In this document: in pieces, positions 39,017 through 64,000 of the stretch
Layout: every line of letters begins with the position of its first letter
Position numbering within the stretch: position 1 is the first letter of the stretch
Assembly (NCBI RefSeq): GCF_052324685.1
Contig: NW_027506876.1
Coordinates: 1,576,501-1,640,500, forward strand
From: Brachyhypopomus gauderio
Taxonomy: Eukaryota > Chordata > Actinopteri > Gymnotiformes > Hypopomidae
Reading direction: 5' to 3'
DNA length: 64,000 nt
The notes under the pieces: generated by a model
Told to the model about the DNA's origin: nothing
Databases searched by the model: none
Seen by the model: the letters and a program-made list of their open reading frames with translations, nothing else
Position numbers and translations under genes: made by a program

Positions 39017-40719
39017 AAATATAGCCGCAAGCGGCAATTACGGGGTCCAAGCTGAGGTTTGGCAAGATTTGGGCACCCACTGGCACATTATGTAAAGCTA
39101 TATGAAATATATATGAAAGTATATGAAGCACATTCGTGAATGAAGTGCCTGCTAAAAAAACAGAATCTAAATTGCAGCTTTTTAAACTTATGGGGGAATA
39201 CTGCCCAACGTGGGATTCGAACCCCCGTTGTCCACGTGCATTGTGGCTGGGAGCACATTGCTCTAGCCATTGAGCTAATGGGTCTGACTGGATTACAGGC
39301 TCAACTCTAACTCTTTTGAGGAAAAGAATGACCTTTGATCTGCATGCATGTTCAGCATAGAAAATGAAAATATTCACAGTACAACCATTTGTGGATGGAT
39401 TTGGCACAAACTTGGCAGATATCACCTCAGTGGTCTTCTGAATGTGTCTGTCCATTTTCATAACAATCAGACATTATATAGGGGAGTTTTTGAAATATGC
39501 AGTTCATATGTCATGACGGTACCATTGTGATGCATATGAAAAATATTAAATTGCAAGAATCTTAGAATTTGTTCTACCAGTTTTGTATTTCACATGCTGC
39601 TGGATATTATAATATGTGATTTGAGGTGATGGAGTGAAAATTCTAGGATTTGTATGAAAAGTGTAAATTATATGTATTGGATTATACACAAAAATCTGTA
39701 CTTTTTTGCAAAGCACTTGCAATTACAAAGTTGTTAGTGATTTTGCATAGAATCATATGAGATCATGATTGTCCTTCTACATGAAAGCATGTAGGAGTAA
39801 TTCAGGAATTTCTAGTATAGCGCCACCTAGTGGTGCAATTCCCGTCATACTTTGATATGTATTAGAGGGTGTGTAGATGAACATAATATGTGAGTTTCAT
39901 GTTGATTGGCATATGATAAGCTTGTGAAAGGTGTACTGAAAGCTGATTGGTCGATAGCGGCGGCCATATTGGACATATGATGGTGCAGGTCAAGGACCTG
40001 TGTCATAGGTGCATATAGATGATGCGTACCAAGTTTGGAGTTATTTGGCCAATCGGTGTGGGCAGGAGAGTTTTTTGGCCGTTATAGCGCCACCTAGGTG
40101 TGCATGTCTGCCAAAATGCATGTGCAGGTCTAGACACCCAATAGGTACATGTGTGTGAAATTTGGAGTGAATACATGAAAGTATGCCTGAGATACAGCAG
40201 AATATGTGGATTTTTGGCGAAGGAATTTTCGACGCTTGACTTGTGATGCATGTGGCCACGCCCATGTGCAGAAATGTGCACTTTGGCTCCATAACTATTA
40301 AAGTTCAGACTCTTGTGAGCGCCTGGATACCACATATGTGCATGTATGTGAAAAATCCAGGGACTAGTACGCGCTCAAAAATGTGTGGGTATTTGCATAT
40401 TATGCAAATTAGCTCGACATGTAAGGGGCGGAGCATATAGCTTCAATGGAACTTTTTTTAGATGAGCTCATGCCTGATCAGATGCAGTTTGAATTTTATC
40501 TCTAGGACATACGGTGTAGGAGCAACACCTATGTAAACTTTTTCATGCGATTTTGTGCGCTATAGCGCCACCTATGGTCGGATCGGGCTGGCGTGTTGCG
40601 CCTGAGTAGCGGAGAGGAGTACTACAAGTTGGCCAAAGGAGAAGTCTGTAGGACTTACGGTTTAGGCTGCACGACGCGTTTTAGCGGAGAAAAAGAATAA
40701 TAATAATAATAATAATAAT
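39017..40719 (+). mobile_element. Array unit A1 (tail at 42641-42689)
   Basis: Subfamily A: the head continues GGGGTCCAAGCTGAGG, then comes a tRNA-like module and a single body. The (AAT)n tract is interrupted by B1. Its tail, marked by CAGAAC instead of CGGAAC, follows the B1 tail. The left flank ACTAATTAT is the unique edge of the whole array. Confidence 0.85.
39203..39284 (-). other. tRNA-like module in A1
   Basis: On the minus strand it has an A-box TAGCTCAATGG, a D-stem GCTC/GAGC, a perfect B-box GGTTCGAATCC (39213-39223) and a CCCA/TGGG acceptor core. About 82 nt. Acceptor and anticodon stems are imperfect and the variable region is long, so it is a tRNA-derived pol III promoter-like module and not a working tRNA gene. 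Confidence 0.7.
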
Positions 40720-42636
40720 AAATATAGCCGCAAGCGGCAATTACGGGGTCCAAGCACAGGGTATGGGCACCATCTGGCACGCCTGAGATGCGTAAGCATG
40801 TGTGTGTAATCACTGGGTAGGTATGGGTGAAGCAATGTGTATATGAAACCTATAGGTAGGCCATTGCATGTGTGTGCATGTGTAAGAAAGATGTAGGGGT
40901 AATTCAGGAAATTCTAGTATAGCGCCACCTAGTGGTGCAATTCCCGTCATACTTGAGTATGTCTTAGAGGGTGTGTAGATGAACATAATATGTGAGTTTC
41001 ATGTTGATTGGCTTATGATAAGCTTGTGAAATGTGAACTGAAAGCTGATTGGTCGATAGCGGCGGCCATATTGGACATATGATGGTGCAGGTCAAGGACC
41101 TGTGTCATAGGTGCATATAGATGATGCGTACCAAGTTTGGAGTTATTTGGCCAATCGGTGTGGGCAGGAGAGTTTTTTGGCCGTTATAGCGCCACCTAGG
41201 TGTGCATGTCTGCCAAAATGTATGTACCGGTCTAGACACCCAATAGGTACATGTGTGTGAAATTTGGAGTGAATACATGAAAGTATGCCTAAGATACAGC
41301 AGAATATGTGGATTTTTGGCGAAGGAATTTTCTACGCTTGACTTGTGATGCATGTGGCCACGCCCATGTGCAGAAATGTGCACTTTGGCTCCATAACAAT
41401 TAAAGTTCAGACTCTTGTGAGCGCCTGGATACCACATATGTGCATGTATGTGAAAAATCCAGGGACTAGTACGCGCTCAAAAATTTGTGCAAATTTGCAT
41501 ATTATGCAAATTAGCTCGACATGTAAGGGGCGGAGCATATGGCTTCAATGGAACTTTTTTTAGATGAGCACATGCCTGATCAGGTGAAGTTTACATTTTG
41601 TCTCTAGGACATACGGTTTAGGAGAAACACCAGTTTAAACTTTTTCATGCGTTTTTGTGCGCTATAGCGCCACCTATGGTCGGATCGGGCTGGCGCGTTG
41701 CGCCTGAGTAGCGGAGAGGAGTACTACAAGTTGGCCAAAGGAGAAGTCTGTAGGTCTTACGGTTTAGGCTGCACAACGCGTTTTAAGGCAGAAAAAAAAT
41801 TGGCATATGAAAAGCTTGTGAAAGGTGTACTGAAAGCTGATTGGTCGATAGCGGCGGCCATATTGGACATATGATGGTGCAGATCAAGGACCTGTGTCAT
41901 AGGTGCATATAGATGATGCGTACCAAGTTTGGAGTTATTTGGCCAATCGGTGTGGGCAGGAGAGTTTTTTGGCCGTTATAGCGCCACCTAGGTGTGCATG
42001 TCTGCCAAAATGCATGTGCAGGTCTAGACACCCAATAGGTACATGTGTGTGAAATTTGGAGTGAATACATGAAAGTATGCCTGAGATACAGCAGAATATG
42101 TGGATTTTTGGCGAAGGAATTTTCGACGCTTGACTTGTGATGCATGTGGCCACGCCCATGTGCAGAAATGTGCACTTTGGCTCCATAACTTTTAAAGTTC
42201 AGACTCTTCTGAACGTTTTGATACCACATATGTGCATGTATGTGAAAAATCCAGGGACTAGTACGCGCTCAAAAATGTGTGCAAATTTGCATATTATGCA
42301 AATTAGCTCGACATGTAAGGGGCGGAGCTTATGGGTTCAAATGTATTTTTTGTAGAATGGAAGATGACTGATCAGATGCAATTGGAATTTTTTGTTTATG
42401 ACATACGGTGTAGGCGTGACAATTTTTTGCGCTCTATAGCGCCACCTATGGTCGGATCGGGCTGGCGTGTTGCGCCTGAGTAGCGGAGAGGAGTACTACA
42501 AGTTGGCCAAAGGAGAAGTCTGTAGGTGTTACGGTTTGGTCTGCACAACGCGTTTTAGGGCAGAAAAAGAAGAATAATAATAATAATCGGAACAATTACA
42601 ATAGGGTTCCAGCACCTTCAGTGCTTGGACCCCTAA
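40720..42636 (+). mobile_element. Array unit B1, nested in A1
   Basis: Complete: head, two body copies 792 bp apart, (AAT)n and its own tail (42588-42636, CACCTTCAGTG hairpin). The end of the second body copy (42320-42430, with GCGGAGCTTATGGGTTC) differs from other B units and resembles C/D, so it is mosaic or retains an older form. Confidence 0.85.
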
Positions 42637-42690
42637 TAATCAGAACAATTACAATAGGGTTCCAGCACCGCTGGTGCTTGGACCCCTAAT

Positions 42691-44575
42691 AAATATAGCC
42701 GCAAGCGGCAATTACGGGGTCCAAGCACAGGGTATGGGCACCATCTGGCATGCCTGAGATGCGTAAGCATGTGTGTGTAATCACTGGGTAGGTATGGGTG
42801 AAGCAATGTGTATATGAAACCTATAGGTAGGCCATTGCATGTGTGTGCATGTGTAAGAAATATGTAGGGGTAATTCAGGAAATTCTAGTATAGCGCCACC
42901 TAGTGGTGCAATTCCCGTCATACTTGAGTATGTCTTAGAGGGTGTGTAGATGAACATAATATGTGAGTTTCATGTTGATTGGCATATGATAAGCTTGTGA
43001 AATGTGAACTGAAAGCTGATTGGTCGATAGCGGCGGCCATATTGGACATATGATGGTGCAGGTCAAGGACCTGTGTCATAGGTGCATATAGATGATGCGT
43101 ACCAAGTTTGGAGTTATTTGGCCAATCGGTGTGGGCAGGAGAGTTTTTTGGCCGTTATAGCGCCACCTAGGTGTGCATGTCTGCCAAAATGTATGTGCCG
43201 GTCTAGACACCCAATAGGTGCATGTATGTGAAATTTGGTATGAATACATGAAAGAATGCCTGAGATATAGCAGAATATGTGGATTTTTGGCGAAGGAATT
43301 TTCTACGCTTGACTTGTGATGCATGTGGCCACGCCCATGTGCAGAAATGTGCACTTTGGCTCCATAACAATTAAAGTTCAGACTCTTGTGAGCGCCTGGA
43401 TACCACAAATGTGCATGTATGTGAAAAATCCAGGGACTAGTACGCGCTCAAAAATGTGTGCAAATTTGCATATTATGCAAATTAGCTCGACATGTAAGAG
43501 GCGGAGCATATGGCTTCAATGGAACTTTTTTTAGATGAGCACATGCCTGATCAGGTGAAGTTTACATTTTGTCTCTAGGACATACGGTTTAGGAGAAACA
43601 CCAGTTTAAACTTTTTCATGCGTTTTTGTGCGCTATAGCGCCACCTATGGTCGGATCGGGCTGGCGTGTTGCGCCTGAGTAGCGGAGAGGAGTACTACAA
43701 GTTGGCCAAAGGAGAAGTCTGTAGGTCTTACGGTTTAGGCTGCACAACGAGTTTTAAGGCAGAAAAAAAATTGGCATATGAAAAGCTTGTGAAAGGTGTA
43801 CTGAAAGCTGATTGGTCGATAGCGGCGGCCATATTGGACATATGATGGTGCAGGTCAAGGACATGTGTCATAGGTGCATATAGATGATGCGTACCAAGTT
43901 TGGAGTTATTTGGCCAATCGGTGTGGGCAGGAGAGTTTTTTGGCCGTTATAGCGCCACCTAGATGTGCATGTCTGCCAAAATGCATGTGCAGGTCTAGAC
44001 ACCCAATAGGTACATGTGTGTGAAATTTGGTATGAATACGTGAAAGAATGCCTGAGATATAGCAGAATATGTGGATTTTTGGCGAAGGAATTTTCTACGC
44101 TTGACTTGTGATGCATGTGGCCACGCCCATGTGCAGAAATGTGCACTTTGGCTCCATAATAATTAAAGTTCAGACTCTTCTGAGCGCCTGGATATCACAT
44201 ATGTGCATGTATGTGAAAAATCCAGGGACTAGTATGCGCTCAAAAATGTGTGCAAATTTGCATATTATGCAAATTAGCTCGACATGTAAGGGGCGGAGCA
44301 TATGGCTTCAATGGAACTTTTTTTAGATGAGCACATGCCTGATCAGATGAAGTTTACATTTTGTCTCTAGGACATACGGTTTAGGAGAAACACCAATTTA
44401 AACTTTTTCATGCGTTTTTGTGCGCTATAGCGCCACCTATGGTTGTATCGGGCTGGCGTGTTGCGCCTGAGTAGCGGAGAGGAGTACTACAAGTTGGCCA
44501 AAGGAGAAGTCTGTAGGTCTTACGGTTTAGGCTGTACGATGCGTTTTAAGGCAGAAAAAAAATAATAATAATAAT
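42691..44575 (+). mobile_element. Array unit B2 (tail at 56275-56323)
   Basis: Head and double body. It breaks off in its (AAT)n tract where B3 starts. The only unclaimed A/B-type tail that balances it lies 11.7 kb further on, at 56275-56323, after the tails of D1 and C2. Confidence 0.75.
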
Positions 44576-46443
44576 AAATATAGCCGCAAGCGGCAATTAC
44601 GGGGTCCAAGCGCAGGGTATGGGCACCATCTGGCACGCCTGAGATGCGTAAGCATGTGTGTGTAATCACTGGGTAGGTATGGGTGAAGCAATTGTATATG
44701 AAACCTATAGGTAGGCCATTGCATGTGTGTGCATGTATAAGAAATATGTAGGGGTAATTCAGGAAATTCTAGTATAGCGCCACCTAGTGGTGCAATTCCC
44801 ATCATACTTGAGTATGTCTTAGAGGGTGTGTAGATGAACATAATATGTGAGTTTCATGTTGATTGGCATATGATAAGCTTGTGAAAGGTGTACTGAAAGC
44901 TGATTGGTCGATAGCGGCGGCCATATTGGACATATGATGGTGCAGATCAAGGACCTGTGTCATAGGTGCATATAGATGATGCGTACCAAGTTTGGAGTTA
45001 TTTGGCCAATCGGTGTGGGCAGGAGAGTTTTTTGGCCGTTATAGCGCCACCTAGGTGTGCATGTCTGCCAAAATGCATGTGTAGGTCTAGACACCCAATA
45101 GGTACATGTGTGTGAAATTTGGAGTGAATACATGAAAGTATGCCTGAGATACAGCAGAATATGTGGATTTTTGGCGAAGGAATTTTCGACGCTTGACTTC
45201 TGATGCATGTGGCCACGCCCATGTGCAGAAATGTGCACTTTGGCTCCATAACAATTAAAGTTCAGACTCTTCTGAACACCTAGATACCACATATGTGCAT
45301 GTATGTGAAAAATCCAGGGACTAGTACGCGCTCAAAAATGTGTGCAAATTTGCATATTATGCAAATTAGCTCGACATGTAAGGGGCGGAGCATATGGCTT
45401 CAATGGAACTTTTTTTAGATGAGCACATGCCTGATCAGGTGAAGTTTACATTTTGTCTCTAGGACATACGGTTTAGGAGAAACACCAGTTTAAACTTTTT
45501 CATGCGTTTTTGTGCGCTATAGCGCCACCTATGGTCGGACCGGGCTGGCGTGTTGCGCCTGAGTAGCGGAGAGGAGTACTACAAGTTGGCCAAAGGAGAA
45601 GTCTGTAGGTCTTACGGTTTAGGCTGCACAACGAGTTTTAAGGCAGAAAAAAAATTGGCATATGAAAAGCTTGTGAAAGGTGTACTGAAAGCTTATTGGT
45701 CGATAGCGGCGGCCATATTGGACATATGATGGTGCAGGTCAAGGACCTGTGTCATAGGTGCATATAGATGATGCGTACCAAGTTTGGAGTTATTTGGCCA
45801 ATCGGTGTGGGCAGGAGAGTTTTTTGGCCGTTATAGCGCCACCTAGATGTGCATGTCTGCCAAAATGCATGTGCAGGTCTAGACACCCAGTAGGTACATG
45901 TGTGTGAAATTTGGTATGAATACGTGAAAGAATGCCGGAGATATAGCAGAATATGTGGATTTTTGGCGAAGGAATTTTCTACGCTTGACTTGTGATGCAT
46001 GTGGCCACGCCCATGTGCAGAAATGTGCACTTTGGCTCCATAACAATTAAAGTTCAGACTCTTGTGAGCGCCTGGATACCACATATGTGCATGTATGTGA
46101 AAAATCCAGGGACTAGTACGCGCTCAAAAATTTGTGCAAATTTGCATATTATGCAAATTAGCTCGACATGTAAGGGGCGGAGCATATGGCTTCAATGGAA
46201 CTTTATTTAGATGAGCTCATGCCTGATCATATGCAGTTTACATTTTGTCTCTAGGACATACGGTGTAGGAGAAACACCAGTTTAAACTTTTTCATGCGTT
46301 TGTGTGCGCTATAGCGCCACCTAGGGTCGTATCGGGCTGGCGTGTTGCGCCTGAGTAGCGGAGAGGAGTACTACAAGTTGGCCAAAGGAGAAGTCTGTAG
46401 GTCTTACGGTTTAGGCTGCACAACGCGTTTTAGCGGAGAAAAA

Positions 46444-46489
<46 letters not shown>

Positions 46490-46538
46490 CGGAACAAAAA
46501 CAATAGGGTTCCAGCACCTTCAGTGCTTGGACCCCTAA
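44576..46538 (+). mobile_element. Array unit B3
   Basis: Complete unit with a CGCAGGG head, the 792-bp double body, a long (AAT)n and a tail at 46490-46538 (CGGAACAAAAAC variant). Confidence 0.85.
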
Positions 46539-48241
46539 ATATAGCCGCAAGCGGCAATTACGGGGTCCAAGCTGAGGTTTGGCAAGATTTTGCACCCACT
46601 GGCACAACATTATGTAAAGCTTTATGAAATGTACATGAAAGTATATGAAGCACGTTCGTGAATGAAGTACCTGCTCAAAAAACAGAATCTAAATGGCAGC
46701 TTTTTAAACTTATGGTGGAATACTGCCCAACTTGGGATTCGAACCCCCGTTGTCCACGTGCATTGTGGCTGGGAGCACATTGCTCTACCCATTGAGCTAA
46801 TGGGTCTGACTGGATTACAGGCTCAACTCTAACTCTTTTGAGGAAAAGAATGACCTTTGATCTGCATGCATGTTCAGCATAGAAAATGAAAATATTCACA
46901 GTACAACCATTTGTGGATGGATTTGGCACAAACTTGGCAGATATCACCTCAGTGGTCTTCTGAATGTGTCTGTCCATTTTCATAACAATCAGACATTATA
47001 TAGGGGAGTTTTTGAAATATGCAGTTCATATGTCATGACGGTACCATTGTGATGCATATGAAAAATATTAAATTGCAAGAATCTTAGAATTTGTTCCACC
47101 AGTTTTGTATTTCACATGCTGCTGGATATTATAATATGTGATTTGAGGTGATGGAGTGAAAATCCTAGGACTAGTATGAAAAGTGTAAATTATATGTATT
47201 GGATTATACACAAAAATCTGTACTTTTTTGCAAAGCACTTGCAATTACAAAGTTGTTAGTGATTTTGCATAGAATCATATGAGATCATGATTGTCCTTCT
47301 ACATGAAAGCATGTAGGAGTAATTCAGGAATTTCTAGTATAGCGCCACCTAGTGGTGCAATTCCCGTCATACTTTGATATGTATTAGAGGGTGTGTAGAT
47401 GAACATAATATGTGAGTTTCCTGTTAATTGGCATATGATAAGCTTGTGAAAGGTGTACTGAAAGCTGATTGGTCGATAGCGGCGGCCATATTGGACATAT
47501 GATGGTGCAGGTCAAGGACCTGTGTCATAGGTGCATATAGATGATGCGTACCAAGTTTGGAGTTATTTGGCCAATCGGTGTGGGCAGGAGAGTTTTTTGG
47601 CCGTTATAGCGCCACCTAGGTGTGCATGTCTGCCAAAATGTATGTGCCGGTCTAGACACCCAATAGGTACATGTGTGTGAAATTTGGAGTGAATACATGA
47701 AAGTATGCCTGAGATACAGCAGAATATGTGGATTTTTGGCGAAGGAATTTTCGACGCTTGACTTCTGATGCATGTGGCCACGCCCATGTGCAGAAATGTG
47801 CACTTTGGCTCCATAACTATTAAAGTTCAGACTCTTCTGAACACCTGGATACCACATATGTGCATGTATGTGAAAAATCCAGGGACTAGTACGCGCTCAA
47901 AAATGTGTGGGTATTTGCATATTATGCAAATTAGCTCGACATGTAAGGGGCGGAGCATATAGCTTCAATGGAACTTTTTTTAGATGAGCTCATGCCTGAT
48001 CAGATGCAGTTTGAATTTTATCTCTAGGACATACGGTGTAGGAGAAACACCTGTGTAAACTTTTTCATGCGATTTTGTGCGCTATAGCGCCACCTATGGT
48101 CGGATCGGGCTGGCGTGTTGCGCCTGAGTAGCGGAGAGGAGTACTACAAGTTGGCCAAAGGAGAAGTCTGTAGGACTTACGGTTTAGGCTGCACGACGCG
48201 TTTTAGCGGAGAAAAAGAATAATAATAATAATAATAATAAT
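46537..48241 (+). mobile_element. Array unit A2 (tail at 50204-50252)
   Basis: Nearly identical to A1 over its whole length, but its left flank is the B3 tail and not unique DNA. Its tract is interrupted by B4. Its tail again carries the A-specific CAGAAC and follows the B4 tail. Confidence 0.85.
46724..46806 (-). other. tRNA-like module in A2
   Basis: The same module as in A1, with a closer A-box (TAGCTCAATGGGTAGAGC) and the same B-box GGTTCGAATCC. The GCC to CCC difference on the plus strand improves the D-loop match. Confidence 0.7.
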
Positions 48242-50111
48242 AAATATAGCCGCAAGCGGCAATTACGGGGTCCAAGCGCAGGGTATGGGCACCATCTGGC
48301 ACGCCTGAGATGCGTAAGCATGTGTGTGTAATCACTGGGTAGGTATGGGTGAAGCAATGTGTATATGAAACCTATAGGTAGGCCATTGCATGTGTGTGCA
48401 TGTGTAAGAAAGATGTAGGGGTAATTCAGGAAATTCTAGTATAGCGCCACCTAGTGGTGCAATTCCCGTCATACTTGAGTATGTCTTAGAGGGTGTGTAG
48501 ATGAACATAATATGTGAGTTTCATGTTGATTGGCATATGATAAGCTTGTGAAATGTGAACTGAAAGCTGATTGGTCGATAGCGGCGGCCATATTGGACAT
48601 ATGATGGTGCAGGTCAAGGACCTGTGTCATAGGTGCATATAAATGATGCGTACCAAGTTTGGAGTTATTTGGCCAATCGGTGTGGGCAGGAGAGTTTTTT
48701 GGCCGTTATAGCGCCACCTAGGTGTGCATGTCTGCCAAAATGTATGTGCCGGTCTAGACACCCAATAGGTACATGTGTGTGAAATTTGGAGTGAATACAT
48801 GAAAGTATGCCTGAGATACAGCAGAATATGTGGATTTTTGGCGAAGGAATTTTCTATGCTTGACTTGTGATGCATGTGGCCACGCCCATGTGCAGAAATG
48901 TGCACTTTGGCTCCATAACAATTAAAGTTCAGACTCTTGTGAGCGCCTGGATACCACATATGTGCATGTATGTGAAAAATCCAGGGACTAGTACGCGCTC
49001 AAAAATTTGTGCAAATTTGCATATTATGCAAATTAGCTCGACATGTAAGGGGCGGAGCATATGGCTTCAATGGAACTTTTTTTAGATGAGCACATGCCTG
49101 ATCAGGTGAAGTTTACATTTTGTCTCTAGGACATACGGTTTAGGAGAAACACCTGTGTAAAGTTTTTCATGCGTTTGTGTGCGCTGTAGCGCCACCTATG
49201 GGCGGATCGTGCTGGCGTGTTGCACCTGAGTAGCGGAGAGGAGTAGTACAAGTTGGCCAAAGGAGAAGTCTGTAGGTCTTACGGTTTAGGCTGCACAATG
49301 CGTTTTAAGGCAGAAAAAAAATTGGCATATGAAAAGCTTGTGAAAGGTGTACTGAAAGCTGATTGGTCGATAGCGGCGGCCATATTGGACATATGATGGT
49401 GCAGGTCAAGGACCTGTGTCGTAGGTGCATATTGATGATGCGTACCAAGTTTGGAGTTATTTGGCCAATCGGTGTGGGCAGGAGAGTTTTTTGGCCGTTA
49501 TAGCGCCACCTAGATGTGCATGTCTGCCAAAATGCATGTGCAGGTCTAGACACCCAGTAGGTACATGTGTGAGAAATTTGGTATGAATACGTGAAAGAAT
49601 GCCTGAGATATAGCAGAATATGTGGATTTTTGGCGAAGGAATTTTCTACGCTTGACTTGTGATGCATGTGGCCACGCCCATGTGCAGAAATGTGCACTTT
49701 GGCTCCATAATAATTAAAGTTCAGACTCTTCTGAGTGCCTGGATATCACATATGTGCATGTATGTGAAAAATCCAGGGACTAGTATGCGCTCAAAAATTT
49801 GTGCAAATTTGCATATTATGCAAATTAGCTCGACATGTAAGGGGCGGAGCATATGGCTTCAATGGAACTTTTTTTAGATGAGCACATGCCTGATCAGATG
49901 AAGTTTACATTTTGTCTCTACGACATACGGTTTAGGAGAAACACCAGTTTAAACTTTTTCATGCGTTTTTGTGCGCTATAGCGCCACCTATGGTCGTATC
50001 GGGCTGGCGTGTTGCGCCTGAGTAGCGGAGAGGAGTACTACAAGTTGGCCAAAGGAGAAGTCTGTAGGTCTTACGGTTTAGGCTGCACGATGCGTTTTAA
50101 GGCAGAAAAAA

Positions 50112-52175: not shown

Positions 52176-54072
52176 ATATAGCCGCAAGCGGCGATTGGCG
52201 GGTTCACACAAAAAAAGGCAAAAAAGCCCAAAGGGTCTTTTAGACCAACAAATTGGCCTCTTGGCCTCAATAGGCAAAAAGAAGCCCAATAGGTCCTTTA
52301 GACCCAAAAGTGAATAGAAGCTGTTTGAGTGGAAAAAATGCATAAGTAAATCAATGTGACAAAACATTCAATTCAACTGAGGCACTAAAGGCCCAAAAGG
52401 ATCAAAATAATGTGTATTGGCAAAATGATTCAGATCACAGAACTAAATCACATGCTGAGATCAGCTTTCTGTGCGTTTGTGTGGTGTTTCATGTGAGCAA
52501 TTGTTTTCAGTCGGTTTCGGTGTTTGGCCACTAGATGGAGCCCAAGTACTATCATACTGATATCTCATTAATCTCAGTAATGCAATGACATTTTGGTGAA
52601 TTAAAAGGTTCATTTCTGGTCAGGCAGTGCACTTTTTGTTATGAGATGTATATGCAATGTTATAGACCTCATTGATCTGAATCATACAAGCCCCATTACT
52701 TGTCTGCATTCTGCATAACAAGATTGCTGCGTGAGTTTTTTTGATTTCTCAGGTTTTTGGGTACTGTAGCGCCTCCGACAGGCCAATTTGAACCAAACTT
52801 GGCCTACCTCACAAGGACCTCAGTGTATAAAAGCCTTTCAAATTGGGAGTTGATCACTTACATGGTTTATGAGTTATAGCAATAAAGGTCATTTATGGCA
52901 TGGCCAGAAGGATATAATGGAAACATTGACCAATCAGACAAATAAAAATGCAACATTTTTTCCATATTTAGTTAACTACAGTGTCTACAGATTATGCCTA
53001 TGCCATTTTTGCCATCATTAGATCAAATTCCTAGGACTAGTTTTTAAAGAGCTATTTTCAAACAATTGATGAATGTGACAAAAGTATGCATTTTTTAATA
53101 GGACTTGTAATTGCAAAGTTGTCAGGTCTACTGCAAGGTATAAAAAGAAACAAGTTGCATGTTCCTAAGTGAAAATTTGAAGGAGTTATGCATGATTTTT
53201 ACAAATAGCGCCACCTAGTGGCCAAATGTTTCAACACTGCACAGTATGACACATAGTCCTGGGATATGCACAGTGGTGAGGTTTCATGTTGATTGGCCAA
53301 TGGTAAGTCTGTCAAATGGCCAATTAATTCAAATAAAAATTAATTGGCTCATGGCGGCCATGTTTTTTGAGTGATGAGGTCATCATTGTGTGCCTTGATA
53401 CCACTTGGGCCCCTGATGATGCCTGTAAAGTTTGGGCTTGATGTGACTAATGGTTTCTGAGAAACAAATTTCCCCATGTTATAGCGCCCCCTATTGGACA
53501 ATCGTGGCCAGCTTTGACCTGTGACCTCTGAGTCATGTGCCCTAACAACTGATAAATTTTCATAAAGATAGGTCAAAGCATTGCTGAGATATAGCTGCTG
53601 AAGTAAATTTGGCCACGCCTCAGAGCTATTGATTGACATGTGACAACCAGACTGTATACCAATGTCACAGTTTTGTTGATGTTCCTTGATAATGAGATTC
53701 TTGTGAATATTTTGACACCAAGATTGTGGTGATCAGATGAAAAACCAGGGACTAGTATAAAAAAGTAGGTTTTGCATATTATGCAAATTAGCAAAAAATC
53801 TAAGTAGGCGGAGCTTAATAATTTTTGTACCATTGTTTTTGGCTTGAGCCAAGGAATCCATCAGAAGTGGAATTTTCTTTCTAGGACCTACGGTGTGGGA
53901 GATATGGGCCAAAATGCAAAAAACTGCGCTATAGCGCCACCATCAGGCCAATTTAGGCCTCTGTACTTAAGCGTGGTCCTGCAAAGAGACTACACCATTC
54001 TGCCAACTTTGGTGTTTCTGGGCCTTACGGTCTAGGCTGCAGTATGCGTTTTATGCGGAGAAAAATAATAAT
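52174..54072 (+). mobile_element. Array unit C2 (tail at 56223-56267)
   Basis: A second C unit, slightly diverged from C1. It stops in its AAT tract where D1 starts. The C-type tail lies right after the D1 tail. Confidence 0.85.
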
Positions 54073-56211
54073 AAATATAGCCGCAAGCGGCAATGAGCGG
54101 GCTCCTCGCAAGTGGCATAGGTACCGACTTGCATGCCTGCGGCGAAGGCATAGTAGATATGGCTAGGCCAGTGTGTATGTGAAACCTATTGGTAGGCCAG
54201 TGCATGTGTGTGCATGTGTAATAGAGAGAGAGAGGGGTTTGGTGTGATAATGTTTGTTTTCATCAGTTAGAGCTGTGTATGTGTGTGAGTGATTGCATAT
54301 AATGGGCAGTCTTAGTTGTCACAGTGAACTCACATGTCTGACATGACAGTGTATGTGCTCAATTTGTGATGCATACACATAAGTAGGTGTATGTGTGTGT
54401 GTGTGTGTGTGTGAATTAGGTGTTTATATGTGTTACTCTAATGTATGAGTAGGCATGGCTAAGGCAGTGTGTATGTGAAGCTTATAGGGAGGCCTGTTTT
54501 TTCTGTGAGTGCATGTGAAATAGAGAGAGGGAGGGGGAGACAGAGACCATGGGTTGTTAAGTGTTAGAAGGTTGGGGGAGTGTGGGGGGGAGTGGATGAG
54601 AGGGGCACTCTGCGTGTGTGAGAAGTGAGTGCATGTGAAATAGAGAGAGGGAGGGGGAGACAGAGACATGGGTTGTTAAGTGTTAGAAGGTTGGGGGAGT
54701 GTGGGGGGAGTGGATGAGAGGGGCACTCTGCGTCTGCGAGAATGAGAGCGTGCGTGCCTGCAAAAGGCTCTCTACCGCTCCTTGCACTGCTGAGTATGGA
54801 AATTGAAAATATTCACTGTAGAGTCATTTGTGGACGGATTTAGCTCAAACTTGGCACATATCACCTCAATGGTCATGTGAATGTGCATGTCAATTTTCAT
54901 AAACATAGGACATACTATAGCGGAGTTATTAAAATATGAATTTGATGTGTTATGATGGTACCATTGTGATGCATATGAAAAATATAAATTTGTGGAAATC
55001 TTAGGATTTTTTGCACAACATTTGCATTGCATAGTCTGCTGAGTATATCAAGGTGTGATTTGAGGTGATGGAGTGAAAATCCTAGGCGTAGTATGGAAAG
55101 TGGAAATTATACATATTTGATAATATATGAAAATCCGTACATTTTTGTAAAGCACTTGCAATTACAAAGTTGTTAAGGATTCTACGTAGAATCATATGAG
55201 TCCAAGTTTGTTGTTTTATGTCATACTATGTGGGCGTAATTCAGGAGTTTCTAGTATAGCGCCACCTAGTGGTGCAATTGCCATCATACCCCAGTATGTC
55301 TTAGAGGGTGTGCACCTGAACATGCCATGTGAGTTTCAGGTCAATTGACATATGTAAAGCTTGTAAAGCTTGTGAAATTGTATACTGACAGCTAATTGGT
55401 CGATGGTGGCGGACATATTGGACATATGATGGTGCAGACCTAGGACCTGTCTCAGAGGTGCATGTAGATGATGCATACCAAGTTTCGTGTTATTTGGCCA
55501 ATCGGTGTGTGCAGGAGAGTTTTTTGGCAGTTATAGCGCCCCCTAGGTGTGAATGTGTGCCAAAATGTATGGGCAGGTGTAGACGCCCAACAGGTACATG
55601 TATATGAAATTTGGTGTGAATATGTAAAAGTATGCATGAGATACAGCAGAAAATGTGCATTTTTGGCTGTGAAATTTTTGCCCCTTGACTTGTGTGGCAT
55701 GTGGCCACGCCCATGTGCAGAAATGTGCATTTTTTGTTAAAGATTATTAAAGTTTAGACTCTTCTGAACGTTTTGATACCACATATGTGCATGTATGTGA
55801 AAAATCCAGGGACTAGTTAGCTCTCAAAAATGTGTGCGATTTTGCATATTATGCAAATTAGCTCGAAAACGAAGTAGGCGGAGCTTATGGGTTCTTGAGG
55901 CTTTTTGGTAGGTTTGGAGACAAGGAACATGTATATGAAAAAATTTTTAATTTAGGACATACGTGGTACTGGCAATTTACTTGAATGCGTTTGCGTGCGC
56001 TGTAGCGCCACCTATGGGCGGATTTGGCTGGCGTCTTGCGCCTGAGTAGCGGGAGGGACTACTACCTATTGACCAAGTTTCAAGTCTGTAGGCCTTATGG
56101 TTTGGGCTGTGCGATCCGTTTTAAGGCAGAAAAAGAATAATAATAATAATAAGGAGAAAAATCCTAACAATTACAATAGGCCTCCAGCACCTTTGGTGCT
56201 CGGAGCCCTAA
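54073..56211 (+). mobile_element. Array unit D1, nested in C2
   Basis: Subfamily D: the head continues GAGCGGGCTCCTCGC. Its leader contains two near-identical segments of about 110 bp rich in GAGAGAGGGAGG (54505-54610 and 54630-54735) and a short (GT)n. The body is A/B-like. Its own tail at 56163-56211 ends GGTGCTCGGAGCCCTAA. Confidence 0.85.
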
Positions 56212-56321
56212 TAAGAAAAACCCGAGCAATTACAATAGGTTTCCCACACTACGTGTGTGAACCCTAATAAAAATCGGAACAATTACAATAGGGTTCCAGC
56301 ACCGGTGGTGCTTGGACCCCT

Positions 56322-58212
56322 AAATATAGCCGCAAGCGGCAATTACGGGGTCCAAGCACAGGGTATGGGCACCATCTGGCACGCCTGAGATGCGTAAGCA
56401 TGTGTGTGTAATCACTGGGTAGGTATGGGTGAAGCAATGTGTATATGAAACCTATAGGTAGGCCATTGCATGTGTGTGCATGTGTAAGAAAGATGTAGGG
56501 GTAATTCAGGAAATTCTAGTATAGCGCCACCTAGTGGTGCAATTCCCGTCATACTTGAGTATGTCTTAGAGGGTGTGTAGATGAACATAATATGTGAGTT
56601 TCATGTTGATTGGCATATGATAAGCTTGTGAAAGGTGTACTGAAAGCTGATTGGTCGATAGCGGCGGCCATATTGGACATATGATGGTGCAGGTCAAGGA
56701 CCTGTGTCATAGGTGCATATAGATGATGCGTACCAAGTTTGGAGTTATTTGGCCAATCGGTGTGGGCAGGAGAGTTTTTTGGCCGTTATAGCGCCACCTA
56801 GGTGTGCATGTCTGCCAAAATGTATGTACCGGTCTAGACACCCAATAGGTACATGTGTGTGAAATTTGGAGTGAATACATGAAAGTATGCCTGAGATACA
56901 GCAGAATATGTGGATTTTTGGCGAAGAAATTTTCTACGCTTGACTTGTGATGCATGTGGCCACGCCCATGTGCAGAAATGTGCACTTTGGCTCCATAACA
57001 ATTAAAGTTCAGACTCTTGTGAGCGCCTGGATACCACATATGTGCATGTATGTGAAAAATCCAGGGACTAGTACGCGCTCAAAAATGTGTGCAAATTTGC
57101 ATATTATGCAAATTAGCTCGACATGTAAGGGGCGGAGCATATGGCTTCAATGGAACTTTTTTTAGATGAGCACATGCCTGATCAGGTGAAGTTTACATTT
57201 TGTCTCTAGGACATACGGTTTAGGAGAAACACCAGTTTAAACTTTTTCATGCGTTTTTGTGCGCTATAGCGCCACCTATGGTCGGATCGGGCTGGCGTGT
57301 TGCGCCTGAGTAGCGGAGAGGAGTACTACAAGTTGGCCAAAGGAGAAGTCTGTAGGTCTTACGGTTTAGGCTGCACAACGAGTTTTAAGGCAGAAAAAAA
57401 ATTGGCATATGAAAAGCTTGTGAAAGGTGTACTGAAAGCTGATTGGTCGATAGCGGCGGCCATATTGGACATATGATGGTGCAGGTCAAGGACCTGTGTC
57501 ATAGGTGCATATAGATGATGCGTACCAAGTTTGGAGTTATTTGGCCAATCGGTGTGGGCAGGAGAGTTTTTTGGCCGTTATAGCGCCACCTAGGTGTGCA
57601 TGTCTGCCAAAATGTATGTGCCGGTCTAGACACCCAATAGGTACATGTGTGTGAAATTTGGAGTGAATACATGAAAGTATGCCTGAGATACAGCAGAATA
57701 TGTGGATTTTTGGCGAAGGAATTTTCGACGCTTGACTTCTGATGCATGTGGCCACGCCCATGTGCAGAAATGTGCACTTTGGCTCCATAACAATTAAAGT
57801 TCAGACTCTTGTGAGCGCCTGGATACCACATATGTGCATGTATGTGAAAAATCCAGGGACTAGTACGCGCTCAAAAATGTGTGGGTATTTGCATATTATG
57901 CAAATTAGCTCGACATGTAAGGGGCGGAGCATATAGCTTCAATGGAACTTTTTTTAGATGAGCTCATGCCTGATCAGATGCAGTTTGAATTTTATCTCTA
58001 GGACATACGGTGTAGGAGAAACACCTGTGTAAACTTTTTTATGCGATTTTGTGCGCTATAGCGCCACCTATGGTCGGATCGGGCTGGCGTGTTGCGCCTG
58101 AGTAGCGGAGAGGAGTACTACAAGTTGGCCAAAGGAGAAGTCTGTAGGACTTACGGTTTAGGCTGCACGACGCGTTTTAGCGGAGAAAAAGAATAATAAT
58201 AATAATAATAAT
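56322..58212 (+). mobile_element. Array unit B5
   Basis: The first body copy is B-type. The second matches the end of A2 (TGTGGGTATTTGCATATT, GCGATTTTGTGC, GTAGGACTTACGG), so the unit is mosaic. No tail follows before B6 starts; it is either beyond the window or lost. Confidence 0.8.
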
Positions 58213-60081
58213 AAATATAGCCGCAAGCGGCAATTACGGGGTCCAAGCACAGGGTATGGGCACCATCTGGCACGCCTGAGATGCGTAAGCATGTGTGTGT
58301 AATCACTGGGTAGGTATGGGTGAAGCAATGTGTATATGAAACCTATAGGTAGGCCATTGCATGTGTGTGTATGTGTAAGAAAGATGTAGGGGTAATTCAG
58401 GAAATTCTAGTATAGCGCCACCTAGTGGTGCAATTCCCGTCATACTTGAGTATGTCTTAGAGGGTGTGTAGATGAACATAATATGTGAGTTTCATGTTGA
58501 TTGGCATATGATAAGCTTGTGAAATGTGAACTGAAAGCTGATTGGTCGATAGTGGCGGCCATATTGGACATATGATGGTGCAGGTCAAGGACCTGTGTCA
58601 TAGGTGCATATAGATGATGCGTACCAAGTTTGGAGTTATTTGGCCAATCGGTGTGGGCAGGAGAGTTTTTTGGCCGTTATAGCGCCACCTAGGTGTGCAT
58701 GTCTGCCAAAATGTATGTGCCGGTCTAGACACCCAATAGGTACATGTGTGTGAAATTTGGAGTGAATACATGAAAGTATGCCTGAGATACAGCAGAATAT
58801 GTGGATTTTTGGCGAAGGAATTTTCTACGCTTGACTTGTGATGCATGTGGCCACGCCCATGTGCAGAAATGTGCACTTTGGCTCCATAACAATTAAAGTT
58901 CAGACTCTTGTGAGCGCCTGGATACCACATATGTGCATGTATGTGAAAAATCCAGGGACTAGTACGCGCTCAAAAATGTGTGCAAATTTGCATATTATGC
59001 AAATTAGCTCGACATGTAAGGGGCGGAGCATATGGCTTCAATGGAACTTTTTTTAGATGAGCTCATGCCTGATCAGATGCAGTTTGAATTTTATCTCTAG
59101 GACATACGGTGTAGGAGAAACACCTGTGTAAACTTTTTCATGCGTTTGTGTGCGCTGTAGCGCCACCTATGGGCGGATCGTGCTGGCGTGTTGCACCTGA
59201 GTAGCAGAGAGGAGTACTACAAGTTGGCCAAAGGAGAAGTCTGTAGGTCTTACGGTTTAGGCTGCACAACGCGTTTTAAGGCAGAAAAAAAATTGGCATA
59301 TGAAAAGCTTGTGAAAGGTGTACTGAAAGCTGATTGGTCGATAGCGGCGGCCATATTGGACATATGATGGTGCAGGTCAAGGACCTGTGTCATAGGTGCA
59401 TATAGATGATGCGTACCAAGTTTGGAGTTATTTGGCCAATCGGTGTGGGCAGGAGAGTTTTTTGGCCGTTATAGCGCCACCTAGGTGTGCATGTCTTCCA
59501 AAATGTATGTGCCGGTCTAGACACCCAATAGGTACATGTGTGTGAAATTTGGAGTGAATACATGAAAGTATGCCTGAGATACAGCAGAATATGTGGATTT
59601 TTGGCGAAGGAATTTTCTACGCTTGACTTGTGATGCATGTGGCCACGCCCATGTGCAGAAATGTGCACTTTGGCTCCATAACAATTAAAGTTCAGACTCT
59701 TGTGAGCGCCTGGATACCACATATGTGCATGTATGTGAAAAATCCAGGGACTAGTACGCGCTCAAAAATTTGTGCAAATTTGCATATTATGCAAATTAGC
59801 TCGACATGTAAGGGGCGGAGCATATGGCTTCAATGAAACTTTTTTTAGATGAGCACATGCCTGATCAGATGAAGTTTACATTTTGTCTCTAGGACATACG
59901 GTTTAGGAGAAACACCTGTTTAAACTTTTTAATGCGTTTGTGTGCGCTATAGCGCCACCTATGGTCGGATCGGGCCGGCGTGTTGCGCCTGAGTAGCGGA
60001 GAGGAGTACTACAAGTTGGCCAAAGGAGAAGTCTGTAGGTCTTACGGTTTAGGCTGCACAACGCGTTTTAGCGGAGAAAAA

Positions 60082-60133
<52 letters not shown>

Positions 60134-60182
60134 CGGAACAAATACAATAGGGTTCCAGCACCGCTGGTGCTTGGACCCCTAA
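58213..60182 (+). mobile_element. Array unit B6
   Basis: Double-body B unit with a long (AAT)n (about 17 units) and a tail at 60134-60182 (CACCGCTGGTG hairpin). The junction from B5 copies the A1/B1 and A2/B4 junctions. Confidence 0.85.
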
Positions 60183-60183
60183 T

Positions 60184-62053
60184 AAATATAGCCGCAAGCG
60201 GCAATTACGGGGTCCAAGCGCAGGGTATGGGCACCATCTGGCACGCCTGAGATGCGTAAGCATGTGTGTGTAATCACTGGGTAGGTATGGGTGAAGCAAT
60301 GTGTATATGAAACCTATAGGTAGGCCATTGCATGTGTGTGCATGTGTAAGAAAGATGTAGGAGTAATTCAGGAAATTCTAGTATAGCGCCACCTAGTGGT
60401 GCAATTCCCATCATACTTGAGTATGTCTTAGAGGGTGTGTAGATGAACATAATATGTGAGTTTCATGTTGATTGGCTTATGATAAGCTTGTGAAATGTGA
60501 ACTGAAAGCTGATTGGTCGATAGCGGCGGCCATATTGGACATATGATGGTGCAGGTCAAGGACCTGTGTCATAGGTGCATATAGATGATGCGTACCAAGT
60601 TTGGAGTTATTTGGCCAATCGGTGTGGGCAGGAGAGTTTTTTGGCCGTTATAGCGCCACCTAGGTGTGCATGTCTGCCAAAATGTATGTACCGGTCTAGA
60701 CACCCAATAGGTACATGTGTGTGAAATTTGGAGTGAATACATGAAAGAATGCCTGAGATATAGCAGAATATGTGCATTTTTGGCGAAGGAGTTTTCTACG
60801 CTTGACTTGTGATGCATGTGGCCACGCCCATGTGCAGAAATGTGCACTTTGGCTCCATAACAATTAAAGTTCAGACTCTTGTGAGCGCCTGGATACCACA
60901 TATGTCCATGTATGTGAAAAATCCAGGGACTAGTACGCGCTCAAAAATGTGTGCAAATTTGCATATTATGCAAATTAGCTCGACATGTAAGGGGCGGAGC
61001 ATATGGCTTCAATGGAACTTTTTTTAGATGAGCTCATGCCTGATCAGATGCAGTTTGAATTTTATCTCTAGGACATACGGTGTAGGAGAAACACCTGTGT
61101 AAACTTTTTCATGCGTTTGTGTGCGCTATAGCGCCACCTATGGTCGTATCGGGCTGGCGTGTTGCGCCTGAGTAGCGGAGAGGAGTACTACAAGTTGGCC
61201 AAAGGAGAAGTCTGTAGGTCTTACGGTTTAGGCTGCACAACGAGTTTTAAGGCAGAAAAAAAATTGGCATATGAAAAGCTTGTGAAAGGTGTACTGAAAG
61301 CTTATTGGTCGATAGCGGCGGCCATATTGGACATATGATGGTGCAGGTCAAGGACCTGTGTCATAGGTGCATATAGATGATGCGTACCAAGTTTGGAGTT
61401 ATTTGGCCAATCGGTGTGGGCAGGAGAGTTTTTTGGCCGTTATAGCGCCACCTAGATGTGCATGTCTGCCAAAATGCATGTGCAGGTCTAGACACCCAGT
61501 AGGTACATGTGTGTGAAATTTGGTATGAATACGTGAAAGAATGCCTGAGATATAGCAGAATATGTGGATTTTTGGCGAAGGAATTTTCTACGCTTGACTT
61601 GTGATGCATGTGGCCACGCCCATGTGCAGAAATGTGCACTTTGGCTCCATAACAATTAAAGTTCAGACTCTTCTGAGCGCCTGGATATCACATATGTGCA
61701 TGTATGTGAAAAATCCAGGGACTAGTACGCGCTCAAAAATGTGTGCAAATTTGCATATTATGCAAATTAGCTCGACATGTAAGGGGCGGAGCATATGGCT
61801 TCAATGGAACTTTTTTTAGATGAGCACATGCCTGATCAGATGAAGTTTACATTTTGTCTCTAGGACATACGGTTTAGGAGAAACACCAGTTTAAACTTTT
61901 TCATGCGTTTTTGTGCGCTATAGCGCCACCTAGGGTCGTATCGGGCTGGCGTGTTGCGCCTGAGTAGCGGAGAGGAGTACTACAAGTTGGCCAAAGGAGA
62001 AGTCTGTAGGTCTTACGGTTTAGGCTGCACGATGCGTTTTAAGGCAGAAAAAA

Positions 62054-62103
<50 letters not shown>

Positions 62104-62153
62104 TCGGAACAATTACAATAGGGTTCCAGCACCGGTGGTGCTTGGACCCCTAA
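60184..62153 (+). mobile_element. Array unit B7
   Basis: Complete double-body B unit, tail at 62105-62153 (CACCGGTGGTG hairpin). Confidence 0.85.
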
Positions 62154-64000
62154 ATATAGCCGCAAGCGGCAATGAGCGGGCTCCTCGCAAGTGGCATAGG
62201 TACCGACTTGCATGCCTGCGGCGAAGGCATAGTAGATATGGCTAGGCCAGTGTGTATGTGAAACCTATTGGTAGGCCAGTGCATGTGTGTGCATGTGTAA
62301 TAGAGAGAGAGAGGGGTTTGGTGTGATAATGTTTGTTTTCATCAGTTAGAGCTGTGTATGTGTGTGAGTGATTGGATATAATGGGCAGTCTTAGTTGTCA
62401 CAGTGAACTCACATGTCTGACATGACAGTGTATGTGCTCAATTTGTGATGCATACACATAAGTAGGTGTATGTGTGTGTGTGTGTGTGTGTGAATTAGGT
62501 GTTTATATGTGTTACTCTAATGTATGAGTAGGCATGGCTAAGGCAGTGTGTATGTGAAGCTTATAGGGAGGCCTGTTTTTTCTGTGAGTGCATGTGAAAT
62601 AGAGAGAGGGAGGGGGAGACAGAGACCATGGGTTGTTAAGTGTTAGAAGGTTGGGGGAGTGTGGGGGGGAGTGGATGAGAGGGGCACTCTGCGTGTGTGA
62701 GAAGTGAGTGCATGTGAAATAGAGAGAGGGAGGGGGAGACAGAGACATGGGTTGTTAAGTGTTAGAAGGTTGGGGGAGTGTGGGGGGAGTGGATGAGAGG
62801 GGCACTCTGCGTCTGCGAGAATGAGAGCGTGCGTGCCTGCAAAAGGCTCTCTACCGCTCCTTGCACTGCTGAGTATGGAAATTGAAAATATTCACTGTAG
62901 AGTCATTTGTGGACGGATTTAGCTCAAACTTGGCAAATATCACCTCAATGGTCATGTGAATGTGCATGTCAATTTTCATAAACATAGGACATACTATAGC
63001 GGAATTATAAAAATATGAATTTGATGTGTTATGATGGTACCATTGTGATGCATATGAAAAATATAAATTTGTGGAAATCTTAGGATTTTTTGCACAACAT
63101 TTGCATTGCATAGTCTGCTAAGTATATCAAGGTGTGATTTGAGGTGATGGAGTGAAAATCCTAGGAGTAGTGTGGAAAATGGAAATTATACATATTTGAT
63201 AATATGTCAAAATCCGTACATTTTTGTAAAGCACTTGCAATTACAAAGTTGTTAAGGATTCTACGTAGAATCATATGAGTCCAAGTTTGTTGTTTTATGT
63301 CATACTATGTGGGCGTAATTCAGGAGTTTCTAGTATAGCGCCACCTAGTGGTGCAATTGCCATCATACCCCAGTATGTCTTAGAGGGTGTGCACCTGAAC
63401 ATGCCATGTGAGTTTTAGGTCAATTGACATATGTAAAGCTTGTAAAGCTTGTGAAATTGTATACTGACAGCTAATTGGTCGATGGTGGCGGCCATATTGG
63501 ACATATGATGGTGCAGATCTAGGACCTGTCTCAGAGGTGCATGTAGATGATGCATACCAAGTTTTGTGTTATTTGGCCAATCGGTGTGTGCAGGAGAGTT
63601 TTTTGGCAGTTATAGCGCCCCCTAGGTGTGAATGTGTGCCAAAATGTATGGGCAGGTGTAGACGCCCAACAGGTACATGTATATGAAATTTGGTGTGAAT
63701 ATGTAAAAGTATGCATGAGATACAGCAGAAAATGTGCATTTTAGGCTGTGAAATTTTTGCCCCTTGACTTGTGTGGCATGTGGCCACGCCCATGTGCAGA
63801 AATGTGCATTTTTTGTTAAAGATTATTAAAGTTCAGACTCTTCTGAACGTTTTGATACCACATATGTGCATGTATGTGAAAAATCCAGGGACTAGTTAGC
63901 TCTCAAAAATGTGTGCGATTTTGCATATTATGCAAATTAGCTCGAAAACGAAGTAGGCGGAGCTTATGGGTTCTTGAGGCTTTTTGGTAGGTTTGGAGAC
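62152..64000 (+). mobile_element. Array unit D2 (cut by window end)
   Basis: Nearly identical to D1 as far as the window reaches, but preceded by the B7 tail and not by a C2 AAT tract. Differences are scattered single bases (for example GCATAT to GGATAT near 62375). Confidence 0.85.

Follow-up and report, generated by a model that had tools for sequence, protein, structure and literature searches.

Helentrons and HINEs (DINE-1-like elements), as described in the accessible part of PMC4067079, combine non-coding copies, sub-terminal inverted repeats, end hairpins and an internal microsatellite with A/T-rich targets, and their genome also encodes a large Rep/helicase/endonuclease partner; the paper reports Helentron proteins from many fish. 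The short repeats described below, from the fish Brachyhypopomus gauderio, are alike in these features, and they form typed nested arrays, of which the available text of that HINE account contains none. FoHeli of Fusarium oxysporum (PMC5148889) likewise has Helitron2-like asymmetric inverted repeats and hairpins. Self-insertion is discussed for FoHeli, and the sections of that paper available to us give single examples (one nested copy and one close tandem), whereas copies of the present family commonly nest, to a depth of up to five and in one orientation.

McGurk and Barbash, as summarized in the accessible portion of a review (PMC12628747), found that transposable element dimers arising from insertion-site preference seed satellite DNA. 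As in those dimers, a common target preference sets copies side by side in our arrays; unlike them, the element described here carries its target internally, and so copies nest as well as abut. Judging from the accessible part of PMC4486113, MuTAnT of Medicago is similar in that a short tandem repeat serves as the target of a mobile element. In contrast to such microsatellite-targeting elements, the present family has its own kin DNA directly upstream of 76 of 79 sampled heads (D and A). Self-insertion is already known, and a family living mostly in itself is a striking variant of it. Our literature search, which covered titles and abstract openings and left subscription papers mostly outside, found no description of the family, and an earlier one may exist. 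To judge by its title, a 2010 paper by Coates reportedly adds a further case of a short tandem repeat used as target, a helitron-like element that sits in (GAAA)n in Lepidoptera.

Units and brackets of the window array

The window, a 64-kb stretch of contig NW_027506876.1, contains 13 heads, all on the + strand. At the end of every copy stands an AAT-rich tract, and behind it a hairpin tail of about 45 bases. Sub-terminal inverted repeats divide the copies into three families (A/B, C and D), and body ends fall into the subtypes P1, P2 and P3. The units are listed below.

39018..42687, + strand: unit A1, outermost copy 1 (head 39020; AAT tract 40696-40719, then B1, then the P2-type tail 42646)
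40722..42634, + strand: unit B1, nested in the A1 AAT tract (P1 body end; TTC tail 42593)
42573..42587, + strand: AAT tract of B1 (P1 type), a recurring target site
42692..56321, + strand: unit B2, outermost copy 2 (head 42694; encloses B3, A2(B4), C1 and C2(D1))
44577..46536, + strand: unit B3, un-nested, in the B2 tract
46538..50250, + strand: unit A2 (tail 50209; holds B4 in its tract)
48245-50193, + strand: unit B4, in the A2 tract (tail 50153)
50255..52173, + strand: unit C1 (C-type head GGGTTCACACACG; C-type tail 52135)
52175..56265, + strand: unit C2, host of D1 (C-type tail 56227, placed after the D tail)
54074..56209, + strand: unit D1 (D-type head GGGCTCC; D-type tail 56168)
56323..64000, + strand: unit B5, outermost copy 3 (head 56325; P2 body end; encloses B6, B7 and D2)
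58214..60180, + strand: unit B6, un-nested, in the B5 tract (tail 60139)
60185..62151, + strand: unit B7, un-nested, adjoining B6 (tail 62110)
62153..64000, + strand: unit D2, adjoining B7 (D-type tail 64253, beyond the window end)

Eleven tails lie inside the window (42593, 42646, 46495, 50153, 50209, 52135, 56168, 56227, 56280, 60139 and 62110). A sequence-only reading had already placed the 13 heads and the stacked tails at these positions, give or take about 5 bases according to where a motif is considered to begin, and had predicted a D-type and then an A/B-type tail past 64000. Both are present in the predicted order, at 64253 and 64306 in window numbering. The tail of B5, which had been expected either beyond the window or lost, is the P2-type tail at 64306, so that B5 encloses B6, B7 and D2. 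The full array comprises 13 heads and 13 tails (9 A/B, 2 C and 2 D), and it ends 346 bases past the window.

Read as opening and closing brackets, these heads and tails give the complete string A1(B1) B2(B3 A2(B4) C1 C2(D1)) B5(B6 B7 D2), in which all 13 brackets match in type, as had been claimed. By hand count, a random deal of the three tail types fits this order in 1 of 4,290 deals. The outermost copies A1, B2 and B5 are flanked by A/T-rich DNA. This is the sole array covered through both outer flanks, and in it heads equal tails. Every inner copy had been proposed to sit in an AAT tract; in each of the five hosts this holds for the first inner copy, but seven other heads directly adjoin the tail of the preceding copy.

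Hosts carry marks of their own tails. Unit A1 combines a P2 body end with a CAGAAC/GCT tail, as do un-nested P2 copies, and B2, with a P3 body end at the tract before 44578, closes with the GG tail at 56280, 13.6 kb from its head. The CAGAAC tail does close both A units, as first described, but it accompanies the P2 body end rather than A heads per se, since the B unit B5 shares it. The A1 body contains a tRNA-like stretch; ARAGORN found no tRNA in the window, and no Rfam family matched there at gathering scores.

Pairing and kinship of copies across the genome

The bracket rules seen in the window also hold in 12 regions of the same genome, located on 10 contigs and picked with a query from a P1 unit, a recurrence that weighs against the assembly error named beforehand as a possible refutation. 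Last-in-first-out pairing matched types in 72 of 72 pairs, compared to a maximum of 67 in 20,000 shuffles. First-in-first-out pairing fits the types worse (59/72) and was rejected for the window. Because C and D pairs number only 9 among the 72, most of the weight is borne by the subtype test. With un-nested copies as the training set, the subtype of the body end predicts which outer tail closes each of 24 nested hosts, a fit that none of 20,000 shuffles equalled, and subtype marks tie hosts to their tails across 2-36 kb. The outer tail shares the subtype of the preceding tail in only 3 of these 24 hosts, contrary to tail duplication. In P1 hosts the insert lies inside a tract that is otherwise fixed, with five AAT units present in 18 of 19 un-nested P1 copies.

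Exceptions were found in two places. Two outermost pairs of another array (C64) violate the subtype rule. With the region designated C1 (not unit C1) extended to 45 kb, 2 of 80 pairs are mismatched over all regions, and this region contains two B tails without a head, with four tails and two heads unpaired. Unbalanced tails had been named in advance as evidence against nesting; the headless B tails are of this kind, and so a bracket can be spoiled by a later deletion or by transposition gone wrong.

The B copies are as similar between arrays (identity 0.9683) as within them (0.9684), and A copies are 0.8909 identical within arrays (12 pairs) and 0.9094 between them (192 pairs). In a tree of 30 B copies, members of one array do not group together, and the seven window copies require seven label changes. 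The window copies are thus unrelated draws from a genome-wide pool, which argues for insertion, and segmental duplication within the window array, proposed earlier, is not supported. Conversely, the C64 array contains near-identical pairs at equal spacing (20965/30736 and 22945/32716), which suggests that segmental duplication has acted there. The youngest subfamily, P1, is innermost in 18 of 21 copies versus 20 of 36 for P2 and P3 (p = 0.023), and this age test was set aside because the regions had been chosen with a P1-unit query.

Termini and a candidate autonomous Helentron

Identical sub-terminal inverted repeats span 13 bases in B, 11 in A (read from the sequence), 11-13 in C and 7 in D. 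The family rule for HINEs in the available text of PMC4067079 is at least 11 bases, which A, B and C reach and D does not. At the head the repeat is set in by 22 bases, whereas at the tail it stands right at the end. Folding at the tail end is strong in all three families (z -4.4, -4.4 and -5.6), whereas the GCCGCTTGCGGC hairpin at the non-tail end is short and equals shuffles (z -0.2 to -0.6); a hairpin near the ends is present by way of the tail end. The ends read TATAG...CCCC(TAA) or its reverse complement, and the 5' TC and 3' CTRR ends of canonical Helitrons are not present. The units resemble HINEs, the non-autonomous Helentrons, and they are most likely rolling-circle jumping genes. Their sub-terminal repeats, when the minus strand is read, lie about 22-24 bases from the 3' end, compared to 38-60 bases from the 3' end in the mite elements of the accessible HINE account (PMC4067079).

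A profile search of the genome gave 85 Helitron_like_N matches. One group comprises 41 matches at 114-120 bits, 40 of them in open reading frames of 2565-2740 aa, and a second group comprises 26 matches at 126-135 bits, in which the mover of the units could lie. One translated Helentron has an intact open reading frame of 2643 aa with OTU, Rep, PIF1 and endonuclease domains (Helitron_like_N 113 bits, PIF1 77, Exo_endo_phos 38, OTU 36) and is located within a nested array. The genome therefore contains a potential autonomous partner with Rep, a PIF1-type helicase and a C-terminal endonuclease. In this one copy, the 1.7 kb downstream of the reading frame are 93% identical to unit C1, and the element closes with a C tail after nested B units. 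The C units thus share their 3' end and tail with an intact Helentron; A, B and D have only the head core and the tail motif in common with C. We infer that Helentrons move these units in trans.

At the 5' side the element has a candidate head: a C head lies 8.1 kb before the reading frame, and about 0.9 kb behind this head is C-like at 92-93%. A second Helentron copy, however, aligns only from 0.9 kb behind the C head, in a third the alignment starts no earlier than 3.2 kb behind it, and strict pairing joins the C head to a tail lying, according to the second copy, inside the element. The reading frame runs from head to tail, whereas the termini are most like those of published HINEs when read the other way; the available text of PMC4067079 reports a gene of such sense as an exception.

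Insertion sites and origin of the arrays

Of the 97 heads in the 12 regions, 51 stand immediately behind a tail and 44 inside a tract, and 39 of the 51 tail-to-head junctions read exactly TAAA. Orientation agrees within each region for all 191 termini with at most one edit, a count that leaves out three weak matches to heads or tails on the opposite strand, with 3 edits. The genome contains 3,941 exact heads. Among the first 100 listed, 92 are clustered and all 75 neighbours share a strand; strand agrees within clusters and differs between them. AAT tracts of at least six units belonged to kin in 46 of 46 cases at loci of at least 5 kb that were mostly chosen for kin, so the count says little on avoidance of other AAT repeats.

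The three sampled heads with no upstream kin lie in A-rich DNA with no long AAT repeat. No empty site outside kin was found for them (two had nested heads near the predicted tail, the third no tail). The preferred site is A/T-rich and lies at the end of a related copy or slightly inward of it. Self-insertion into the AAT tract just inside the element's own tail was correctly recognized from the sequence, a reading refined by the many heads that follow a tail and by the three in A-rich DNA. Possibly, though we rate it somewhat below even odds, what draws the Helentron machinery is the end of a kin copy and not the AAT repeat in itself; it would enter at the nearest TT steps beside or just inside an existing hairpin end, and the main genomic niche of the family would be itself.

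We explain the array as stacked short HINE-like, Helentron-derived non-autonomous rolling-circle elements in the same orientation (probability about 0.86). A new copy would land, in the same orientation, either in the tract of a resident copy or immediately after that copy's tail. Insertion into the tract would separate the host body from its tail and supply a fresh tract and tail, and repeated rounds would generate typed nested brackets. Copying would proceed by rolling circle with mobilisation probably supplied in trans by Helentrons, and the site preference most likely reflects strand-specific entry at TT steps of the (ATT)n strand near the end of a kin copy.

A tandem satellite enlarged through unequal crossing-over or segmental duplication, its tails being copied on the spot, would account for the head-to-tail order, the near-identical units and the equally spaced pairs of the C64 array. 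In the window, however, stacked tails match distant heads and not one another, nearest relatives lie outside the window copies, four interleaved unit types close exactly by type, and adjacent units are no more alike than units of other arrays, as they should be in a satellite. The conclusion of the sequence-only reading that this is not a tandem satellite was borne out: for the window the satellite is largely refuted, local tandem and tail duplication being rejected by subtype linkage, identities and tree, and as an explanation of the whole it is most improbable. Rolling-circle slippage, in which end bypass or multimer insertion yields tandem copies in one event, has been described for plant and bat Helitrons in the accessible parts of PMC12628747 and PMC4067079. 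The TAAA junctions are what a joined circle should leave, and headless tails occur in the 45 kb region, but slippage predicts one repeated unit with many heads and few tails, whereas window neighbours differ in type and subfamily and heads equal tails there; we consider it very unlikely.

The net insert, ATATAGCC...CCCC plus three bases, is compatible with TAA duplication or with AA/TT insertion without duplication, and the former would suit cut-and-paste miniature elements of the PIF/Harbinger type nesting in TAA repeats, the latter the HINE mode of entry at TT. PIF/Harbinger elements have symmetric terminal inverted repeats and a three-base TWA target duplication. Our termini show no such symmetric repeats, a TWA target should permit both orientations whereas only one was found per region, GCCAA instead of TAA precedes three heads, and the 3' end and tail of C units are common to an intact Helentron, making a PIF/Harbinger-like origin extremely unlikely.

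As stacked insertions, tandem-looking arrays become readable as an ordered insertion history with a built-in error check, namely that a host closes with its own tail type. Helentron insertion can be studied in them with the help of natural empty sites and of a strand rule, and they indicate a route from transposon to satellite-like DNA. The family is a clear case of a mobile element whose sampled copies were placed mostly in its own kin, which may limit harm to its host; if homing on kin is true, the transposon would limit itself, spare host genes and record its own insertions as nested brackets. The arrays contain motifs that we take to be CTCF-like, and array growth with these putative motifs could reshape chromatin domains.

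Heads, tails and bracket pairing

In the genome assembly (796.5 Mb, 840 contigs; window at C32:1576501-1640500), the repeat units were tokenised into heads (unit starts), recognised by TATAGCCGCAAGCGGC together with a family motif, and tails (hairpin ends), defined as a CAATTACAATAGG-like start plus a hairpin. The scan of the window revealed 13 heads and 11 tails, every one on the + strand. The sequence-only reading had treated heads as opening and tails as closing brackets, and had predicted a D tail followed by an A/B tail past position 64000. Both are present, at window positions 64253 and 64306, and the tokeniser found no further heads or tails of these types in the 9.1 kb behind them. The complete string, A1(B1) B2(B3 A2(B4) C1 C2(D1)) B5(B6 B7 D2), contains 13 pairs with no type errors and a nesting depth of 3. 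The matched-bracket reading of the array is right: it made a prediction open to failure, and the prediction held.

An independent check of this reading is provided by family-specific inverted repeats common to the head and tail of one family:

B units: GGGGTCCAAGCAC, in head and tail (A units have 11 bases of it)
C units: GGGTTCACACA(CG), in head and tail
D units: GGGCTCC, in head and tail

Pairing was analyzed in 12 regions from 10 contigs (195.5 kb in total, with 97 heads and 94 tails), including the near-duplicates C35 and C467 and near-duplicates within C64. Since the regions were picked among the top matches of a 301-base query across stacked tails, the set is enriched for nested arrays. 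Last-in-first-out pairing gave type agreement in all 72 pairs (nine C or D pairs included), whereas first-in-first-out pairing of the same regions gave 59 of 72, and 20,000 shuffles of the tails reached a maximum of 67. Most regions are cuts of 10 kb; within the stretch read, 25 heads and 22 tails lack a partner. A 45 kb region of contig C1 has two B tails without heads; with this region included, there were 2 mismatches in 80 pairs over all regions, the leftovers in the 45 kb region being four tails and two heads.

The A/B units fall into three body-end subtypes, which link hosts to distant tails. In un-nested copies, where tail subtypes were scored, P1 is followed by a TTC tail (18/19), P2 by GCT or ACT (13/15), and P3 by GG (6/6). 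Nested hosts and their assigned outer tails, 2 to 36 kb apart, showed the same link, with a log-likelihood of -23.2 for all 24 hosts against a shuffled mean of -48.5 (0 of 20,000 shuffles as good) and of -22.7 against -44.4 for the 23 A/B hosts alone, again with no shuffle as good. The outer tail had the subtype of the preceding tail in 3 of 24 cases. Exceptions to the rule are two outermost C64 hosts and the three hosts of P1b, a group without representation among un-nested copies.

Landing sites and genome-wide distribution

Among the 97 heads, 44 lie in an AAT tract, 51 behind a tail, and two elsewhere, one of these at the outer flank of the window's array. The 51 tail-to-head spacers are exactly TAAA (39), TAATAAA (9) or longer (3). 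Of 19 un-nested P1 copies, 18 carry (AAT)5 as their tract. The two nested P1 hosts whose tail matches have this tract interrupted, as (AAT)3AAA / element / TAATAATCGG; the host has thereby gained the element and 3 further bases, which is compatible with insertion at AA/TT and no duplication, or else with duplication of TAA. Each region has a single orientation (191 of 191 termini with ≤1 edit); the count leaves out three weak matches on the opposite strand, each with 3 edits (position 940 of the read stretch L014, position 6902 of L016, and a site in the C1 Helentron).

Genome-wide, the head core has 3,941 exact matches, and the A/B head 30-mer is present 920 times; read backwards, neither occurs in the genome. 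Of the first 100 head positions listed (contig C1, 0.86 to 43.47 Mb), 92 form 17 clusters with gaps of ≤15 kb (random expectation, 3.5% of gaps), and clustered neighbours lie on one strand in 75 of 75 cases, the strand varying between clusters. Upstream DNA was read for 42 D and 37 A heads. The samples were the 40 top-scoring of 412 D candidates and the 40 top-scoring of 504 A candidates, and therefore probably young copies. BLAST detected kin sequence upstream in 76 of these 79 heads (59/62 in one set and 17/17 in another). Of the D heads, 38 had come from a query that included 6 bases of left context; without left context, 40 D heads were retrieved (34 previously read, 4 new, 2 in the window), 39 of them inside or behind kin by hand count and one not. 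The three heads without upstream kin are all preceded by A-rich DNA; in two cases another head is nested close to where the tail is predicted. In three sampled heads (one D, two A; stretches L072, L077 and L095), the kin body upstream ends in bases of another kind, a common odd host end (gcaattataattgccaa) that lacks the usual tract and tail and may be either a site where copies land repeatedly or a composite element.

Insertion and duplication

Full-length B copies (n = 31) had a mean identity of 0.9684 inside one array (129 pairs) and of 0.9683 across arrays (335 pairs); for 21 A copies, the values were 0.8909 (12 pairs) and 0.9094 (192 pairs), respectively. On a tree built from 30 B copies, label changes numbered seven for the seven window copies, which is the highest possible value (shuffled mean 6.4), and 15 for the labels of all arrays taken jointly (shuffled mean 14.0). 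The window B copies were therefore gained by insertion rather than duplication, each arriving independently out of a genome-wide pool. Contig C64 has near-identical pairs ~9.77 kb apart, so segmental duplication probably acted in C64:490000-539999. This 50 kb array stretch (L015-L019) shows five-deep nesting. Near-identical arrays on different contigs, C467:22000-31999 and C35:65000-74999 (L023, L024), represent either duplication or alternative haplotypes.

A probable Helentron partner

The Pfam domain Helitron_like_N has 85 matches in the genome. One group comprises 41 with scores of 114-120 bits, and 40 of these fall in ORFs of 2565-2740 residues; several of the group sit on the array-bearing contigs C1, C8, C55, C102, C35 and C467, and only the C1 copy was observed within an array. 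Another 26 matches score 126-135 bits; many of these are on C2:48892-657404, their ORFs are often near 2300 residues, and they may be a separate Helitron-like lineage. The C1 ORF (2643 residues) contains OTU, DUF6570, Helitron_like_N, PIF1 and C-terminal exonuclease-endonuclease domains, and matches further Pfam families including Herpes_teg_N. In the Helentron protein (L067:902-8830), OTU and a Herpes_teg_N match (33.9 bits) both lie in the N-terminal quarter. The domain architecture of the ORF corresponds to that published for Helentrons (PMC4067079).

Since its tract contains B(B) and B and is followed by a C tail, the Helentron serves as a host in its own right; the 1.7 kb before the tract share 93% identity with unit C1 of the window. 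The ORF is preceded, at a distance of 8.1 kb, by a C-type head, which has 0.9 kb of C-like sequence (92-93%) behind it and was joined by strict pairing to a C tail 1.4 kb on. Since a second Helentron copy (C102; 95.6% alignment starting 0.9 kb behind the C head) holds the same inner tail, we read this tail as a headless relic. The alignment of a third copy (C55) starts only 3.2 kb behind the C head. The C-type head is therefore likely, though not proved, to be the Helentron's own. C units have the look of derivatives that arose from this Helentron by deletion, and A, B and D are tied to C by a common head core and tail motif. The Helentron ORF runs head to tail, but the termini are most like those of published HINEs (non-autonomous Helentrons) on the opposite strand.

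The most likely mechanism is Helentron-driven self-insertion, which would build arrays with a copy's own end region as the favourite target. Helitrons in nested or tandem arrangement are already known; what is new is a family that habitually inserts inside or next to its own copies, always facing the same way, and leaves typed brackets that can be parsed.

In unit A1, a tRNA-like stretch at 39202-39284 (-) scored 24.9 bits with the Rfam tRNA model, below the 29-bit gathering score, and ARAGORN found no tRNA in the window. The tRNA-like stretch of A units, which carries A and B box motifs (a further B box is at 46745 (-)), is perhaps a captured tRNA or SINE head. A CTCF-like motif has 13 matches in the 25 kb array (39000-64000) and none in the preceding 39 kb. 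The window also has a tandem repeat at 2839-4043 (84-base period, 14.4 copies), probably a C2H2 zinc-finger array judging by its period.
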